The position numbers and the translations under genes were made by a program. The notes beneath the pieces were generated by a model, which saw only the letters and a program-made list of their open reading frames with translations, searched no databases and was not told the origin of the DNA. Shown piece by piece: positions 73 to 7,541 of a stretch of DNA of 7,541 nucleotides; position 1 is the first letter of the stretch, and each line of letters starts with the position of its first letter. The stretch covers positions 1-7,541 of the forward strand of contig JAJOLG010000026.1 in assembly GCA_021129445.1 (NCBI GenBank). Reading direction: 5' to 3'. The stretch is from Candidatus Altimarinota bacterium. GTDB taxonomy: Bacteria > Patescibacteriota > Gracilibacteria > GCA-2401425 > JAJOLG01.

Positions 73-393
73 CTAATGCAACATTTCCAAAAAAAATCAA
101 TTCCCATTCTTACGATATAAAATATTCTTTTTATTTGTCAATAAATCAATATCACTGATTATTTCCATTTCTTCAATTTTTTTTAAATTTTCAGGGTATT
201 CTCAATAATTTTTTTTATAAGTTTCAATTGACCAAGTCAAAATTTTTTTGATTTCAGTATTTTTCTCAGAAATTTTTTTTTGTTCAAAAATTTTTGCTGG
301 AATTGTTAACATTAAGAAAAAAAACACACTTATTCAGAGTGTTAAAAAAATTTTTTTATTATTTGGAAAATTTTTTTTGATAATTTTTTTCAT
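73..393 (-). CDS. Small single-pass membrane protein with pilin-like tail, partner of PilT
   Basis: A 106-residue protein, read with TGA as Gly (three TGA, one GGG), ending in TAG. The start ATG lies 8 bases after the stop of pilT, so it is almost certainly co-transcribed with it. The N-terminus is basic (MKKIIKKN) and is followed by one hydrophobic helix at about residues 15-32. A short Lys/Glu-rich helical stretch leads to a tail containing YGEYP at residues 63-67. The pilin encoded at 3267 carries the same YGEYP at the same residue numbers, and this kind of motif (a tyrosine-rich helix end, then a YP turn) is common in type IV pilins and type II secretion pseudopilins. The GFTLIEL-type prepilin peptidase site is absent. 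I infer a pilin-like minor or accessory subunit that stays uncleaved. It could instead be an unrelated anchored protein; the gene is well supported, the role is not. Confidence 0.8.
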
Positions 394-401
394 TTTAATT
401 A

Positions 402-1889
402 TTATTCGGATTTGAAGAATCATTGATAACAATCATGTGGAATTTTTCATTCTGCAGCTAAATCTTCTGCATAATCAAACATTCTTACCATTCATTCAGA
501 TCTTCAAGAAAGCATTGCATTTCACATTTGACCCATATCTCATGTTCTAATGATGTTTCTTACAGCAGTATTTACAATTAAAACCTCAAATAATCAAATT
601 CTTCATTTTCAATCAACTGTTTTTACAAGTCTTTGAGAAAGTACTCAAATTAAAGCATCGGCAAGTCTTGATTGAACTTGATCTTGTTCGTCGGAAGGAT
701 ATGTTGAAACAAGTCTGGAAATTGTTTGTGCGGCTGATGATGTATGAAGTGTTGAAATTACTAAATGTCAAGTTTCTGCAAGGTGCATTGCGGCATTTAT
801 CGTCTCTTGATCTCTCATTTCTCAAATCATAATAATGTCTGGATCCTCACGAAGTGCAGCTTTTAGTGCATTATGAAAAGAATCTGTGTCTGTTCAAACT
901 TCTCTTTGAGAAAAAATTGATTTATCATTTGTAAAAATAAATTCAATCGGATCTTCGATTGTCAAAATGTGCTCAACTCTTGTTTCATTTATAAATTGCA
1001 ACATTGATTGCATTGAAGTTGATTTTCAAGATCAAGTTGGTCAAGTTACAAGTAAAAGTCATTGATTTTTTTTCAATAATTGTTTAATTGATTGAGGTAT
1101 TCATAAATCTTCAATTTTCATCGCCTGAGATGCGATTTTTCTCAAAACTCATGCCATTTTTTTTCTTTTGTAAAATAAATTTACCCTAAAATTGACTCAT
1201 GATGGATGTTCGTATGCACAATCCATTTCTTTTGTTTCTTTGTATCTTTCAATTATTTTTTTATCATTTCACATTAAAGTTGAAACATATTTTAGCATTG
1301 TTTTTTTGGACAATTGCTCAATTTCATTGATAAATTCGATACTTCAATTTATTCTCAATGCAACTTTTTCTCATGCTCAAAAATGTAAATCTGATGCTCA
1401 ATTTTCAATCACTGCATCTAAAAGTTTATCAATTGTCAAATCGTCCTCTCATGAAATTCAAGTTTCAATTGTTTGGATTTCTTCTGTTTCAACTTCTTCT
1501 TTGGTGTTTGTCATTTCTTCTTTTTTACAATCTTTTTTTTCTTCAAGTTGGTCTTGAAAAATATTATTTTCTGGAATTTCAATTTTATCTTCTGGTTCTG
1601 ATTTTTTTTCTTCTTCTTTTTCAGATTTTTGTTTTTTTGGTTTGTCCGATAAAACAACATTTTGGTTTAATGCTGCCATAAAATCGTCTTCAACAGTCTT
1701 TCATTTTGATCAATCAGAAACAACAGTTTTTGGGGCTGATGTGGTTTTTTCTTTTGGTTTTGAATCTGATTTTTTAGGAGTTTTTTCTTTTTTTACTTCA
1801 TTTTTTATTTCATTTTTTTTATTTGAAATTTCCTCGTTTGGAGTAATATCGTCATCAAAACTAGTTTTTACTTTGTCAAAAAATCCCAT
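402..1889 (-). CDS. pilT: PilT-type type IV pilus retraction ATPase with long N-terminal extension
   Basis: PilT is the cytoplasmic hexameric ATPase that depolymerises type IV pili and powers twitching and retraction. The 495-residue reading uses TGA as Gly (about 29 of 31 glycines). Residues 1-150 are a Lys/Glu-rich, probably disordered extension. Residues about 151-275 form the PAS-like N-terminal domain (ASDLHF from 165, then FRVNLFYKR). The RecA-like core carries Walker A GPTGSGKS at 283-290, an Asp box TIEDPIE at 310-316, Walker B DIIMIGEMRD at 351-360 and a His box with H375 and H382 (ETGH...STLHT). AVRNIIR at 442-448 matches the PilT-specific AIRNLIRE motif, which favours retraction ATPase over the PilB assembly ATPase. 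Usual PilT proteins are about 350 residues, so the extra length is all N-terminal. The ATG at 1889 is the first in frame; an internal ATG at 1679 is also possible. It ends in TAA and is followed closely by the pilin-like gene. Confidence 0.95.
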
Positions 1890-1916
1890 AAAATTTAATT
1901 ATTTTTTTTTATTACT

Positions 1917-1947
1917 TTACTTTTATTTTTTCAAAAATAAATATAAA
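1917..1947. promoter_or_regulatory. AT-rich divergent promoter region between pilT operon and glycosyltransferase
   Basis: The 108 bases between the divergent starts at 1889 (minus) and 1998 (plus) are nearly pure A/T and must hold both promoters if each operon has its own. On the plus strand TATAAA at 1942-1947 is a possible -10 box, with TTACTT at 1917-1922 as a poor -35 at 19-base spacing. On the minus strand TATATT (1945 down to 1940) overlaps it and would suit the pilT operon. In such AT-rich DNA matches of this quality arise by chance, so the boxes are weak candidates only. Confidence 0.25.
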
Positions 1948-1997
1948 AAATTTGCTTTATGCTTGGAAAAATTTATTTTTATGGAAAAATATTTTTT

Positions 1998-3194
1998 ATG
2001 AGTTTTGAGAAAAATTTTTTAAAAGGCAAAAAAATTGCAATTGTTCACGATTTTCTTGTGAGGTTTTGATGAGCAGAAAGGCTTGTTCAGAATTTTTCAG
2101 AAAATTTTCCTGATGCAAAAATTTTTACACTTTTTTATGATGAAAAAAAAATTTGAAAATTTTTTCCGAAAGAAAAAATCATAACTTCTTCGCTTCAAAA
2201 ATTTTATAATTTGAGTTTTTGAAAATACACTCATCTTTTTTGATTGATGCCAAAGGCAATTGAAGAGTTTGATTTTACTGGGTATGATGTGGTGATTTCT
2301 TCGTCGTCGGCATTTTCAAAATGAGTGATTACAAATCCTGAAACCTTTCATTTGTCGTATGTTCATGCACCGATGAGATATATTTGGGATTATTTTTTTA
2401 GGTATCCAGCCGAGAAAAAAATGTGATTTTTGAAAAAATTTTTTTTCGAAAAAATGGCTTCAAAAATGCGAGAATGGGATTTTGTGTCGGCTCAGAGGTC
2501 TGATAAAATTATTTGCCCATCAAAAGATGTTCAAAAAAGGATAAAAAAATTTTGGTGAAGAGACTCTGAAATTATTTTTCCCTTTGTTGAAATTGAAAAA
2601 TTTTCGCCCCCGGTGGCGAATTCTGCAAGAAAAAATTTTCTTGTTGTCTCTCAATTAGTACCTTACAAAAAAATTGATCAAATTATTTTGGCATTTCAAC
2701 AATTTTCAGAAAAATTTTCTGATGAAAAATTGATTATTGTTTGAGATTGACCGGAAAAAACAAGTTTGGAAAATTTGGCAAAAAAAGTTTTTTGAGAAAA
2801 TTTTTGAAAAAATATTGAATTTGTCGGTGCGAAATTTTGAGACGATTTGGTAAAATTTTATCAATGAGCAAAATTATTTATTTTCGCTTGAATCGACGAT
2901 TTTTGAATTACTCCGATTGAGTCAATGGCTTGTGGGGTGCCGGTTTTGGCGATTTGAAAGTGATGAGTTTTGGAAACTGTTGTTGAGTGAGAAACTTGAT
3001 TTTTTTACGATGAGCAAAAAGTAGAAAAAATTTTGGAAAAATTATTTTTTTTGCAGGAAAAAAATTTTTTAGAGTGAGAAAAATTTTCAGAACTTCAAAA
3101 AAAATCTGTTGAACAAGCGAAAAAATTTTCAAAAAAGATTTTTGAAGAAAAAATTTTATCAGAGTTGAAAAAGATTTTTAGCATAAAAAAATAA
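1998..3194 (+). CDS. GT4-family glycosyltransferase (WbaZ-like)
   Basis: A 398-residue GT-B fold glycosyltransferase of family GT4, which moves a sugar from a nucleotide-sugar donor to a growing surface glycan or other acceptor at the inner face of the membrane. Read with about 22 TGA-Gly and 4 GGN-Gly codons. The N-terminal acceptor domain opens with IAIVHDFL (13-20) and GGAER from 24. YVHAPMRYIWD follows, a signature of WbaZ-type mannosyltransferases. The donor domain starts near residue 217 (SQLVPYKKID), with IIVGDGPE at 246-253 and the retaining-GT4 acidic motif DDFGITPIE at 300-308, then CGVPVLA and a GG loop. The usual first Glu of EX7E is Asp here (D300, E308). There is no transmembrane segment, so it is peripheral or cytoplasmic. 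The ATG at 1998 places IAIVHDFL at the expected distance. Donor and acceptor sugars cannot be told. The neighbouring pilin gene makes surface polysaccharide or pilin glycosylation a reasonable guess. Confidence 0.93.
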
Positions 3195-3199
3195 TTATT

Positions 3200-3230
3200 T
3201 TGACTTTTCAAGTGTTTTATTTTTGAAAAT
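3200..3230 (+). promoter_or_regulatory. Weak promoter candidate upstream of the pilin gene
   Basis: In the 72-base gap before the pilin gene, TTGACT (3200-3205) matches five of six bases of a sigma-70 -35 box. GAAAAT (3225-3230), four of six, lies 19 bases further on. The -10 is poor, so the pilin may instead be read through from the glycosyltransferase gene. Confidence 0.3.
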
Positions 3231-3266
3231 TCATTTTTTTATTTATTTTTTTTAAAAAAATTTTTT

Positions 3267-3917
3267 ATGAAAAAAATATTAAAATCAAAGGCTTTTACAT
3301 TGATTGAATTGATGATAGTTGTGGTGATTTTGTGAGTTTTGATGTCGACAATTTTACCGAAATTGACTTGATGACAGGCGAGATCGAGAGATTCTTGAAG
3401 GATGAGTGATTTGAGAAATATTGTTTCTGCTCTTAATGTTTATTATGATGATTATTGAGAATATCCATGAATGCAATGAAAATCATATTGTTTACCAGAA
3501 AGTTGAGATTCTACTGATGAGAAAACAGCATCTCATGTTTCATGAGTATTACAATCTTATTTACAAGAATGAAAAGTTCCGCAGGATATGAAAAGTAGTT
3601 CAAATTCAAAGCTTTGTAATGCTGATTGATTATGAAAATATTATTATGTTCCATTGATTTGGAATTGATTAGATAAAAACTCTTTTGTTCTTTGTGCAGA
3701 TGTTGAGGATTATCATAATGCAAATATGTCTGTTGAAGATGATATAAATATTATTTGAACAGATGCAACAAATGCAGATTCTTTTGCTAAATATGCTTTA
3801 AAGCCTGATGACGATACAGTTGAAAAGTTTTATAAAACAGTTACAGAAAGAAAGTTTACAAAAGAATCGCCACATTGAGCATCTGATTCGGTTTATTGTA
3901 TTTTGAGAAGTTTATAG
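3267..3917 (+). CDS. Type IV pilin or pseudopilin with class III leader
   Basis: A 216-residue prepilin-like protein; all 15 glycines I counted are TGA, and the stop is TAG. A short basic leader (MKKILKSKA) precedes the hydrophobic helix FTLIELMIVVVILGVL. Phe10 would be the N-methylated first residue of the mature protein and Glu14 the conserved Glu5 needed for assembly. The residue before the cut is Ala rather than the usual Gly, which PilD-type peptidases tolerate in some pilins. After the helix comes a long amphipathic segment, then YYDDYGEYP ending at residue 67, as in major pilins and pseudopilins. Four cysteines at 75, 117, 143 and 211 could form two disulfides in the globular head. It is well suited as the fibre subunit retracted by the PilT encoded upstream. 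Major versus minor pilin cannot be decided. It sits 72 bases after the glycosyltransferase gene. Confidence 0.92.
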
Positions 3918-3959
3918 TTTATTACAAAACCCTAAAAAAATATTTTTTCAAACTAATTT

Positions 3960-3989
3960 TTGAGAAAATATTTTTTTTTCGTGTAAAAT
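3960..3989 (+). promoter_or_regulatory. Likely sigma-70-type promoter for the VirB2-like gene pair
   Basis: TTGAGA (3960-3965) and TAAAAT (3984-3989) each match five of six bases of the consensus boxes and are 18 bases apart. Transcription would begin near 3996, about 17 bases before the ATG at 4013. This is the best promoter match in the window, though the AT-rich background raises the chance of coincidence. Confidence 0.5.
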
Positions 3990-4012
3990 ATTTTGATTTC
4001 TAACTTAAAAAA

Positions 4013-4417
4013 ATGAAAAAAATTTTGAAAATATTTTTATTATCGTGCTGATTATTTTTTTTGATGCAGTGAGTTTGATTTGCAAATACTGGTATTTCAA
4101 ATAATGCAAGTAAATTTGATTTAAACACCTTATTTGTAAATAAAGCGGTTGTTAATTGAACAGATGTTTGAGAAGTAAAAGCAAAAAATGTTGATGAAAT
4201 GGCCGCACTAATTGTAAAAATGATAACCTGATTGATTTGATGATTTGCTGTACTTGGGGTTGTTTTGGGAGGTTTTATGATTTTAACATCGTGATGAAGT
4301 GATAATGGTATGAATAAATGAAAAAAGATAATTATTTATTCTTTGGTGTGAATTGCGATGAGTTTGGTGTCTTATGCTTTGATTCAGTTGGTACAAATAT
4401 TTTTATTTAGTTTTTAA
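4013..4417 (+). CDS. VirB2/TrbC-like small pilin-type membrane protein
   Basis: A 134-residue secreted or inner-membrane protein read with about 12 TGA-Gly and 5 GGN-Gly codons, stop TAA. Residues 1-24 form a signal peptide (basic MKKILK, a hydrophobic core, then GFA before a likely cut at Asn25). An LLSC at 9-12 looks like a lipobox, but the hydrophobic core runs past it, so lipidation is doubtful. After a polar stretch come two transmembrane helices, about 66-90 and 104-131. The connecting loop SGGSDNGMNKGKK resembles the T-S-x-G...KA-K loop of VirB2/TrbC-type subunits common in Candidate Phyla Radiation genomes, where they are annotated as type IV secretion pilins. No VirB4 or VirB6 is visible here, so a true secretion role is unproven. 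Its stop is 2 bases before the next gene, so the two are probably translated together. Confidence 0.85.
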
Positions 4418-4419
4418 TT

Positions 4420-5154
4420 ATGAGGATTTTTTTAGGAGTTTTTGTTGGTGTGGTGATGTGGTTTGATTTTGGGTTTACTGATGATTCTTTTTCTGTTTCA
4501 TATCCAACTAAACCTATTAATGTAAAAGATTATCTTCCGTATAATAATACTGATTATTTTAATGAAAAAATCGATAAAACAGTTGATACTGCTATTAAAG
4601 AAAAAGCATTAAAACAACATTGACCAACTAATGAAAAAGCAGAGGTATTAAAAGAATTAAAAGAAAAAGAAAAAAATAAAACAATAACAGAAGAAGAGAA
4701 AAGGATATTATGAAATTATCGTAATTCAATGTCTGCAAGAGAATGTAAATCACAAGAATTAATTGCAACAGCTGTGAAATATTCTAGTAATCAAAAACCA
4801 TTTTGTTATTTTACAAGAGCTGATTGATATTGATGTAAATCATGAATATGTAAAAATATTTGAGAAAATTGAACAACTTTACGGGTTTTTCCAGACTGAA
4901 CAAGTGAAAAGCAATGAATTAATTTAATGCAATCCTTCCTTTCTGTAATTTTATGATATGTTATCAAATTCTGAGCAATGCTTGCAGTTCTTGCAATTGT
5001 CATTTGATGAATTCAGGTTTCTATGAATTGAGATTCTGATTGAGAATCACCAATTTGAAAAGATAAGATTATGTGATGAATCGCGGCTTTGGTGGTGTTA
5101 TTTTTTACTGGGGTTATTTTGCATTTTATCAATCCTGGGTATTTTGTTTGGTAA
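4420..5154 (+). CDS. Membrane protein with four-cysteine outer domain and VirB2/TrbC-like C-terminal helices
   Basis: A 244-residue protein I do not recognise as a named family (about 18 TGA-Gly, 5 GGN-Gly, stop TAA). An N-terminal hydrophobic segment (about 1-20) looks like a signal peptide or anchor. Residues about 25-105 are polar, with a very Lys/Glu-rich helical part around 70-95. A small cysteine domain follows, with Cys at 109, 129, 139 and 144 and a Gly/Tyr-rich turn between the last pairs, suggesting disulfides or a bound metal outside the cytoplasm. Two C-terminal transmembrane helices lie at about 172-197 and 214-236. They enclose a Gly/Asp/Ser loop and GKDKIMGG, which echoes the two-helix unit of the preceding gene. 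I infer a paralogous or fused relative of the VirB2/TrbC-like protein, carrying an extra outer domain. The ATG at 4420 is 2 bases after the upstream stop, implying coupled translation. One codon, CGG at residue 155, is rare in this window. Confidence 0.85.
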
Positions 5155-5185
5155 AAATAGAATTTTTTATTTTGTAGATTTTTTT

Positions 5186-5214
5186 TTGCTTTCAAATAAT
5201 TTTTTTTTCATAAT
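5186..5214 (+). promoter_or_regulatory. Likely promoter for the sufBD-DUF4153 unit
   Basis: TTGCTT (5186-5191) and CATAAT (5209-5214, five of six consensus bases) are spaced by 17 bases. Transcription would begin around 5221, giving a leader of about 17 bases before the ATG at 5238, similar to the arrangement upstream of 4013. The -35 box is modest. The 83-base gap shows T-runs but no GC-containing terminator hairpin for the upstream genes. Confidence 0.4.
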
Positions 5215-5237
5215 TTAAAAAAATAATTTTTAAAAAA

Positions 5238-6236
5238 ATGGAAAAAAATATAAATTTAGAACAAAAAAGAGTAGAAAATAAAAGTAAAGCTCTGCAAAAA
5301 ATGCAAATTGTTGCAAAAGCGGTTTGAGTGCCGATTGAGACTTTGACGAAAAATAGGAAAAAGATGAATATTATTTTTTTGAATAATAATTCAGAAAAAG
5401 AAAATTTTACGAAAGAAATTTTAAACACAGCAATTACAGTTGAAAGTTCTGTAGAAAATGGAGTTTTAAGGTCAATTATTACTGTTCCTGATAATTATCA
5501 AGATGAAACTCCATGGTATTTTTGTTTTCAACTTGATAAAAAGTGAACAAAACAGGCGGTTTCGCCAACTTGGAATGTTTGAAAGAATGCAAAAGTGTTA
5601 ATTTATGCATATTGTTTTGGAATGGAGACTGATGTTGTGCATTGAGATTGAAAAATTTACAATATTTGAGATAATTCAAGTTTGGAAATTTATGAATTTA
5701 ATTTTAATATGTATGGCTCGTACATGAAGGTAAATAATGTTTTTAAGGCATATTTGTGAAAAAATGCATATTTTAAAAATCACTACGAATCGACAACTTG
5801 AAATCTTTGATATTGAAATACAAGGTGAGAGGTTTATTGTAATTGAGAAAATTCAAAAGCGGATTTTATCACAAAAAATAGGATTATGGATGGAGATGTT
5901 TCAAAATTGGATATAAAATTTTTCTTGAATTGAAAAAATTCATCTTGAATGATGCTTTCAAAATCCGTAACTTTTGAGTGATGAAAAAATTATTTTAAAT
6001 GAACAATTGTTTGAGATTGAGACAACACATCTTGACATATTAATTGTAGTGAGGTTTCGATGTGAAAATGTGAAATTGAGACATTGCCGTGTTTAAAAGT
6101 TTTAAACCCAAGTGCGAGATTGACTCATGAGGCTGCGGTTTGAACACTTGAAAGGAAGTCGGTTGAGAACTTGATGATAAAATGATTTTCTGAGGATGAG
6201 GCGATAAATTTTTTGGTGAATGGGGTTTTGGATTAA
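5238..6236 (+). CDS. SufB/SufD-family Fe-S cluster assembly protein (short, stand-alone)
   Basis: A 332-residue protein of the SufBD family, which with the ATPase SufC builds Fe-S clusters in the cytoplasm. Read with about 23 TGA-Gly and 5 GGN-Gly codons, stop TAA. The first 60 residues are helical and charged. The middle is beta-rich, with the repeated short strands expected for the SufBD right-handed beta-helix. The C-terminus is diagnostic: HINCSEVSMG from 267, ETLPCLKV, then RLTHEAAVG and a final helix with GFSEDEAINFLVNG. Cys270 and Glu298 line up with the catalytic Cys and Glu of E. coli SufB (C405 and E434 as I recall), 28 rather than 29 residues apart, so this looks SufB-like in function. 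Length is near that of short archaeal-type SufBD proteins and well below SufB (about 480-500 residues). No sufC, sufS or sufU is within the window; SufC would have to be encoded elsewhere. The next gene begins 16 bases later. Confidence 0.9.
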
Positions 6237-6252
6237 AAAAATAATAAATTTT

Positions 6253-7541
6253 ATGAAAAAAATAAAAAATTTCTTCCAAAAAAAATTTTTTTTGGATGTA
6301 AAAAATAATTTAAAAAAATCTTTTAAAAATTTTCCAATTTCTTTTATTTCAATAATTTTAATTTTCTGAATTTTAGAATTTTTAGTTTTGAAGTGAAATT
6401 TTTTGTCGGAAAATTTGCAAAATATTTTATGAAAATTAATTTTAAGTTTAAGCATTGTTGCAATTTTGTGAGTTTGAATAAAATTTTTTTTGGAAGATAA
6501 AATGTGAATTTGTTTGTGAAAAAGTTGTAAGATAAAAAAGAAAATTATTTGATTTTCACCAATAATTTTTTGAATTTTGTTTTTCGTAAATTTTGAAGGA
6601 AGTTTGCTAAAAAACTTTTATTTTGAAGATTTTTTATATATTTTTATTTCAATTTTTTTAGCTGTTTGCTTTTTATTTGTATCAAAATTTTTAAAAATAA
6701 AAAAAATTGAAAACGGAAAAATGCTTGATTGAGAATACAAAAATTCTGAATATATCCATTTTTTAAATGGACAAATCGGAAAAATTTGAATTTCATTTTT
6801 GGCATGATTTATTTTGATGATATTGTGATTTATTGCTTTTTCTGCAATTTTTTCACTTTTTGATTTGTGAGATTTTTTAAATACATCAAAAGTTTTTTGA
6901 TTTTGGTTGGTTTTTAGTTTTGGTTTTTTTGCACCGATTTATTTTTTGGTCAAAAATTCTGAAAAAAAATCCGAAAATTCACAAAATATTTTTTTTGAAT
7001 TTTTAACTAAATTTTTATTTTTACCATCAATTTTTATTTATTTTATCATACTTTTTGCATATTCTGCAAAAATTTTATTAAATTTCCAAAATTGGCCGAA
7101 TTGAGTAATTTCATGGTTAATAATTTTTTTCTCAACTTTTTGATACTTGGTTTATGCCGAAATTTTTCAACTTTCTGCAAAAAATAATTTTGCCAAAATT
7201 TTTAAGAAATTCTTTCCATTTGCGGTTTTATTGCAAATGCCGATGTTTTTTTATGCGATTTTTTTGAGAATAAATCAATACGATTGGACGATAAACAGAT
7301 ATTTACTCGTGGGTTTGTGATTGTATTTTACAGTTATTTCCCTGTATTTCATAATTTCAAAAAATAAAAAATTGGTAAATATTTTTTGGATTTTATTTTT
7401 ATTTTTGTCTTTTATTTCGTTTTCTTGACCATTTTCTGTTTACAAATTTCCAGAAAATCAGCAGTTAAAAATTTTGGAAAAAAATTTAATTGAAGCGAAA
7501 ATTTTACAAAATTGAAAAATTATTTTATCAAAAGAAGATGT
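6253..7541 (+). CDS. DUF4153-like polytopic membrane protein (3' end beyond window)
   Basis: At least 429 residues with no stop before the window edge (about 20 TGA-Gly, 6 GGN-Gly). After a basic, cytoplasmic N-terminus the chain holds roughly ten hydrophobic helices, for example about 29-47, 60-80, 97-112, 124-147, 178-205 and 215-235, and further ones to about 390. The C-terminal part visible matches what I know of the DUF4153 family: NRYLLVGLGLY from 348, a helix, then SGPFSVY around 391-397 and a QQ-L motif at 403-405 leading into a soluble helix. The function of DUF4153 is unknown; it is an integral membrane domain. The gene starts 16 bases after the sufBD-like gene and so is probably co-transcribed, but no functional link is evident. 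It is very rich in Phe, Ile, Leu and Lys (TTT, ATT, AAA), as expected at this GC content. The family assignment is by motif memory only. Confidence 0.78.

Follow-up and report, generated by a model that had tools for sequence, protein, structure and literature searches.

The window described here is the whole 7,541-nucleotide contig JAJOLG010000026.1 (C39) of a Candidatus Altimarinota genome (assembly GCA_021129445.1, indicated as G000), which consists of 672,893 bases in 77 contigs. Here glycine is encoded mainly by UGA, a sense codon, and genes end only with UAA and UAG. The genome is reduced, has a low content of guanine plus cytosine (GC) and belongs to the GTDB class that holds Gracilibacteria, Peregrinibacteria and Absconditabacteria. 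The literature found describes UGA as glycine only in Gracilibacteria and Absconditabacteria (JAEDAM01). The best explanation of the data, to which we assign a probability of about 0.8, is that the genome represents a lineage sister to another genome of its order, G001, lying outside this known clade, and that its reassignment is a separate one.

UGA as a glycine codon

The window is tiled by eight open reading frames (ORFs), when translated with genetic code 25, in which UGA is glycine (Table 1). ORFs of at least 80 amino acids cover 91% of it under this code, against 9% under code 11. In the seven main ORFs 139 UGA are found, for 30 GGN codons: UGA makes up 82% of the glycine codons, in line with the share of over 80% given by the first-pass annotation, which had been made from the sequence alone and had read UGA as glycine throughout the window. 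The motif glycines named there are indeed all encoded by UGA: the three of GPTGSGKS and that of IGEMRD in the PilT-family ATPase, those of GGAER and both of those in GDGPE in the glycosyltransferase, and those of the SGG loop in the VirB2-like protein. The seven complete genes end, as had also been stated, only with TAA or TAG; the eighth runs past the end of the window. Between 44 and 46 of the UGA sites in the window may be aligned to homologs, and all of the 11 strongly conserved ones correspond to glycine. The product of the PilT-family gene scores 400.6 bits on TIGR01420, above the cut-off, when UGA is read as glycine, against 328–352 bits when it is read as Trp, Arg, Ser, Ala, Cys, Asn or Glu; it also matches PF00437 and the PDB structure of PilT 2ewv (E 1.8e-84).

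Genome-wide codon figures refer to 21 stretches, including the window, for a total of ~257 kb (~38% of the genome). On each of them UGA represents 73–93% of the glycine codons, and ORFs cover 67–96% of the stretch under code 25, against 0–13% under code 11. Both the GC content, about 25%, and the UGA share are uniform over the 21 stretches. UGA amounts to 6.4% of the 78,849 codons counted; ORFs end with TAA in 196 cases and with TAG in 24, and UGA is read through.

Two sets of alignments were used to establish the residues found at UGA sites in homologs. For the first, UGA was masked and the products were aligned to standard-code proteins: glycine is found at 61.7% of 1,575 UGA sites, and in 150 of the 160 conserved columns. 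GGT, GGA and GGG codons, handled identically as controls, give a similar result (59–69% glycine). For the second, where a larger reference set was used and UGA was read as X, glycine is found at 58.3% of 1,978 sites and tryptophan at 0.2%, and 284 of the 298 conserved columns are glycine. UGA columns other than glycine, which the first-pass annotation had named as a refutation, are not what the alignments show. A scan of genome contigs with PilT as the query returned only distant PilTs, suitable as standard-code references.

Placement of the lineage and code use in its relatives

Within the class, three families (f12, f15 and f22) feature UGA inside genes. In f15 and f22 a tRNA-Gly with anticodon UCA, carrying the glycine identity bases, is present, and f12 has a UCA tRNA of a different form; on the basis of code and tRNA, the three are assumed to represent the known code-25 clade. 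The genome under study stands alone in its family, and G001 is the only other member of the order that was compared. In a tree built from 18 ribosomal proteins (2,573 columns; LG+F+G4, E. coli as outgroup), the two fall together within the group formed by families f2, f13, f16 and f3, with an ultrafast bootstrap support (UFBoot) of 100. The same set, under LG+C20+F+G4 with posterior mean site frequencies (PMSF), gives values of 99 in the SH-like approximate likelihood ratio test (SH-aLRT) both for the pair and for the wider group, and the placement is unchanged when every UGA is masked as X. RpoB, encoded on a different contig, also places the genome outside the code-25 clade, with branches supported at 96 and 99 between them. 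A single clade of all organisms using UGA as glycine is rejected by the approximately unbiased (AU) test with both the ribosomal set (58 lnL units, p=0.0018) and RpoB (26 lnL units, p=0.0269).

Two further comparisons point the same way. The tRNA-Gly(UCC) is identical to that of G001 at 72 of 75 positions, against 54–58 for the others; and among signature residues of RpoB and ribosomal proteins the genome features none of the six specific to the code-25 clade and four of the six specific to the group of G001. The first-pass annotation had ascribed the code to the known Gracilibacteria/Absconditabacteria lineage: this does not agree with the two marker sets, the two AU tests, the tRNA comparison and the signature residues, which all place the genome outside. 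Since it is sister to G001, near lineages in which UGA is a stop, and is not nested in the known clade, the trees indicate that its reassignment most likely had a separate origin.

The use of UGA in the neighbouring lineages was evaluated from release factor (RF) genes, ORF ends and tRNAs. G001 carries two full-length genes of the RF family, one of which reads as RF1; in the DNA examined, its ORFs end with TAA in 29 cases, TAG in 9 and TGA in 3, so that UGA looks like a rare stop. A pattern search of G001 for tRNA-Gly(UCA) gave no match. In families f16 and f3 UGA is clearly a stop, and f3 genomes carry an RF2 with the SPF motif. When 353 genomes of the class were surveyed with the tRNA-Gly(UCA) pattern, which misses the form present in f12, the only tRNA-like match outside f15, f22 and f24 was found in a single genome of family f13, G012.

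This genome, counted outside the known clade, indicates that the wider group is not uniformly standard in its code. Its tRNA-Gly(UCA) (contig C1, 4485–4561) forms a cloverleaf with G1:C72, C2:G71, G3:C70 and U73, and coexists with an intact RF1 (PVT motif) and an intact RF2 (SPF and GGQ motifs). In 336 kb of G012, 194 in-frame UGA are concentrated in 41 of 261 ORFs (~16%), the remaining 220 containing none. The UGA-bearing genes include those for pilus ATPases, for a type IV secretion system (T4SS) pilin and for surface-type proteins of very great length. Besides C1, contigs C43 and C59 are concerned in these observations on G012. In two pilus-type ATPases several UGA fall in columns where 25–30 of 30 homologs have glycine. 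Such a sparse use could reflect reassignment at an early stage, or else genes acquired from a recoded donor.

Decoding genes, CGG and competing explanations

Searches for RF-family genes in the genome under study revealed neither RF2 nor RF1; similar searches do recover UGA-rich genes. None of the 26 tRNAs identified with the Rfam tRNA model has anticodon UCA, and tRNA-Met, tRNA-Glu, tRNA-Ser(GCU), tRNA-Arg(UCU) and others are also missing. Two patterns for tRNA-Gly(UCA), effective on known code-25 genomes, did not reveal it in this incomplete assembly, nor did a search for intron-bearing tRNAs over its stretches yield a UCA anticodon; one match to the UCA pattern, on contig C22, is not a tRNA. 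As UAA and UAG are in use as stops, an RF1 must exist, and the assembly therefore has gaps in that respect. When the parent genome was searched, as the first-pass annotation had proposed, for a tRNA-Gly(UCA) and for loss of prfB, neither gene turned up; with RF1 and a number of essential tRNAs absent too from the incomplete assembly, the outcome speaks neither for nor against the proposal.

Other features of the assembly may be mentioned here. It is estimated to be 94.8% complete, in spite of the absence of RF1, tRNA-Met and tRNA-Glu and of a total of only 26 tRNAs: either completeness is overstated, or contigs bearing tRNAs were lost. Besides a normal tRNA-Trp (C4, 12830–12904), a second tRNA with anticodon CCA is found on C8 (1944–2019), where C1:G72, A73 and G37 make it unlike a normal bacterial tRNA-Trp; it is without glycine identity bases and is not claimed as a reader of UGA. 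A class A RNase P RNA (C15, 3251–3606) directly follows an assembly gap (a run of N at 3149–3249).

A second codon appears to deviate from the standard code. CGG is rare, with 37 occurrences in 78,849 codons (0.47 per 1000). At the 16 sites that could be aligned, a match to tryptophan, at least partial, is found in 8 (weighted 43%, close to the 48% obtained for TGG codons), and arginine in none; eight aligned CGA sites lean to arginine. A tRNA with anticodon CCG (C5, 3026–3102) features G73 and A1:U72, which are tryptophan-like, but also A20, an arginine identity base, and by itself leaves the charging uncertain. Judging from these alignments, CGG is probably read as tryptophan, and not as arginine. 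Of the assignment to genetic code 25, the part concerning UGA stands, and the part which leaves the remaining codons standard appears not to hold for CGG.

Several points weigh against a separate origin of the reassignment. The tRNA-Gly(UCA) was not found in the assembly, and both RF genes are missing, so that a loss of RF2 is indistinguishable from an assembly gap. RpoB, partial in this genome, does not make it sister to G001; G001 covers 45% of the ribosomal columns, and the family is represented by one genome only. The use of UGA as a stop in G001 rests on three readable ORFs, and only one of its two release factors was assigned, as RF1. Finally, having both UGA as glycine and CGG as tryptophan in common with the known clade would also suggest common descent.

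The genome might instead belong, as an unexceptional representative, to the known code-25 clade (Gracilibacteria BD1-5/Absconditabacteria SR1, GTDB JAEDAM01) and be wrongly placed by the trees. UGA is glycine there too, CGG as tryptophan also occurs in that clade (PMC8629427), a low-GC, fast-evolving genome is more difficult to position, and the p value in the RpoB AU test is only 0.027. We regard this as unlikely: two independent marker sets agree on the opposite, also when UGA is masked, and the AU test rejects with both a single clade of the organisms using UGA as glycine. An AT-rich composition, moreover, would be expected to draw the genome toward the AT-rich code-25 genomes, and the trees show the reverse; the near identity of its tRNA-Gly(UCC) to that of G001 and the lack of any clade-specific residue also speak against membership.

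A single old origin, with a tRNA-Gly(UCA) already present in the ancestor of the class, or in that of the group f1/f2/f13/f16/f3, followed by reversions or losses in several lineages, might account for the presence of both this tRNA and in-frame UGA at glycine positions in G012, which belongs to this wider group. It appears quite unlikely, as UGA terminates genes in f16 and f3, the tRNA pattern has no match in G001 and, in the 353 genomes surveyed, finds tRNA-like matches only in f15, f22, f24 and G012 (the f12 form being missed). More changes are also needed than with separate gains, although the margin is of one step within the smaller group.

It is very improbable that the window, or the ribosomal contig, derives from another organism. 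The genome is a metagenome-like bin of 77 contigs in which RF1 and several tRNAs are missing, as might occur in an artefactual one; yet recoding and placement come together on a single ribosomal contig, where 26 UGA are found in the gene for L2, and again on the rpoB contig, likewise recoded. The uniformity of UGA share and GC over the 21 stretches argues in the same direction, as does the tetranucleotide correlation of the window, which is 0.49–0.70 with other contigs of the genome and 0.10–0.48 with other genomes. Practically no credence may be given to UGA as tryptophan (code 4), to ambiguous readthrough or to decaying pseudogenes, for which nothing was found to speak: tryptophan amounts to 0.2% at aligned sites, UGA is far too common a codon for it, the genes are free of internal UAA and UAG, and the PilT score is best with glycine.

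A separate origin thus being preferred, a more detailed scenario can be outlined, toward which we lean with less assurance: that the change from UGA stop to glycine evolved for a second time, together with that of CGG to tryptophan, among relatives which terminate at UGA, and that G012 has been caught in transition. As to the mechanism of a separate origin, low GC would probably have first made both UGA, as a stop, and CGG rare; RF2 would then have been lost and UGA captured by a tRNA-Gly(UCA), as the known cases suggest by analogy, with CGG being captured by a tRNA charged with tryptophan.

Genes of the window and comparison with known code changes

The features of the window are reported in Table 1. 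The short gene at its beginning, for which family searches gave no match, could be extended to position 543 as a code-25 ORF, and would then overlap pilT. In the PilT-family protein, a charged extension of ~150 residues, rich in Lys and Glu and encoded at 1440–1889, lies at the N-terminus, ahead of the ATPase core.

Table 1. Genes and motifs of the window, with in-frame UGA and GGN codons
Feature	Position	Strand	UGA	GGN	Stop	Remarks
Short gene	73..423	-	3		TAG	start most likely at 423
PilT/PilU-family type IV pilus retraction ATPase, with N-terminal extension	402..1889	-	29	2	TAA	
IGEMRD motif of PilT	810..827	-				Gly encoded by UGA
Walker A motif of PilT (GPTGSGKS)	1020..1043	-				all three Gly encoded by UGA
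GT4-type glycosyltransferase	1959..3194	+	22	6	TAA	PF00534, PF13439
GG of FGGAER, glycosyltransferase	2067..2072	+				both Gly encoded by UGA
Type IV pilin / GspG-like pseudopilin	3267..3917	+	15	0	TAG	PF07963, TIGR02532
T4SS_pilin (VirB2-like) protein	4013..4417	+	12	5	TAA	PF18895
SGG loop of T4SS_pilin protein	4292..4297	+				UGA-UGA
Second T4SS_pilin-like protein	4420..5154	+	18	5	TAA	PF18895, E 6e-4, under cut-off; 1 CGG
SufB/SufD core-domain protein	5238..6236	+	23	5	TAA	PF01458
Membrane protein	6220..7541	+	20	7		weak DUF4153 match; open at window end

A second, parallel case, standing beside lineages which still use UGA as a stop, would provide a comparison where only one historical event had been available. 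It would allow asking what predisposes the class to this change (low GC, rarity of UGA, tRNA-Gly repertoire), and whether the reassignments of UGA to glycine and of CGG to tryptophan tend to co-occur. G001, G012 and the genome described here are candidate stages of the process: a rare UGA stop with two release factors; a tRNA-Gly(UCA) together with RF2 and a sparse UGA; and UGA as the main glycine codon. Such stages could be used to weigh codon-capture against ambiguous-intermediate models. In practice, this genome and its kin would be wrongly annotated by gene callers that rely only on taxonomy to assign code 25.

In one report (PMC13293708, citing Ivanova 2014), the use of UGA for glycine is described as restricted to JAEDAM01, with one origin in its common ancestor. 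No report of a second origin was found in a literature search, whose reach did not extend to subscription papers and preprints. The genome resembles the Gracilibacteria (BD1-5) and Absconditabacteria (SR1), to which NCBI table 25 applies, in reading UGA as glycine, in ending genes with UAA and UAG, in its low GC and reduced size, and in belonging to the same class; it differs from them in its position in the ribosomal-protein and RpoB trees, outside their clade, beside G001 and near lineages that keep RF2 and UGA as a stop. Absconditabacteria, and Gracilibacteria in part, are known to read CGG, and also CGA, as tryptophan (Shulgina and Eddy, PMC8629427). Here too CGG is very rare and aligns with tryptophan and not with arginine; in contrast to that clade, CGA still aligns with arginine, and the tRNA(CCG) retains A20, its charging being uncertain. 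With code 4, as used by Mycoplasma and endosymbionts, the genome shares a low GC and the conversion of the UGA stop into a sense codon, but the amino acid is glycine here, and tryptophan there.

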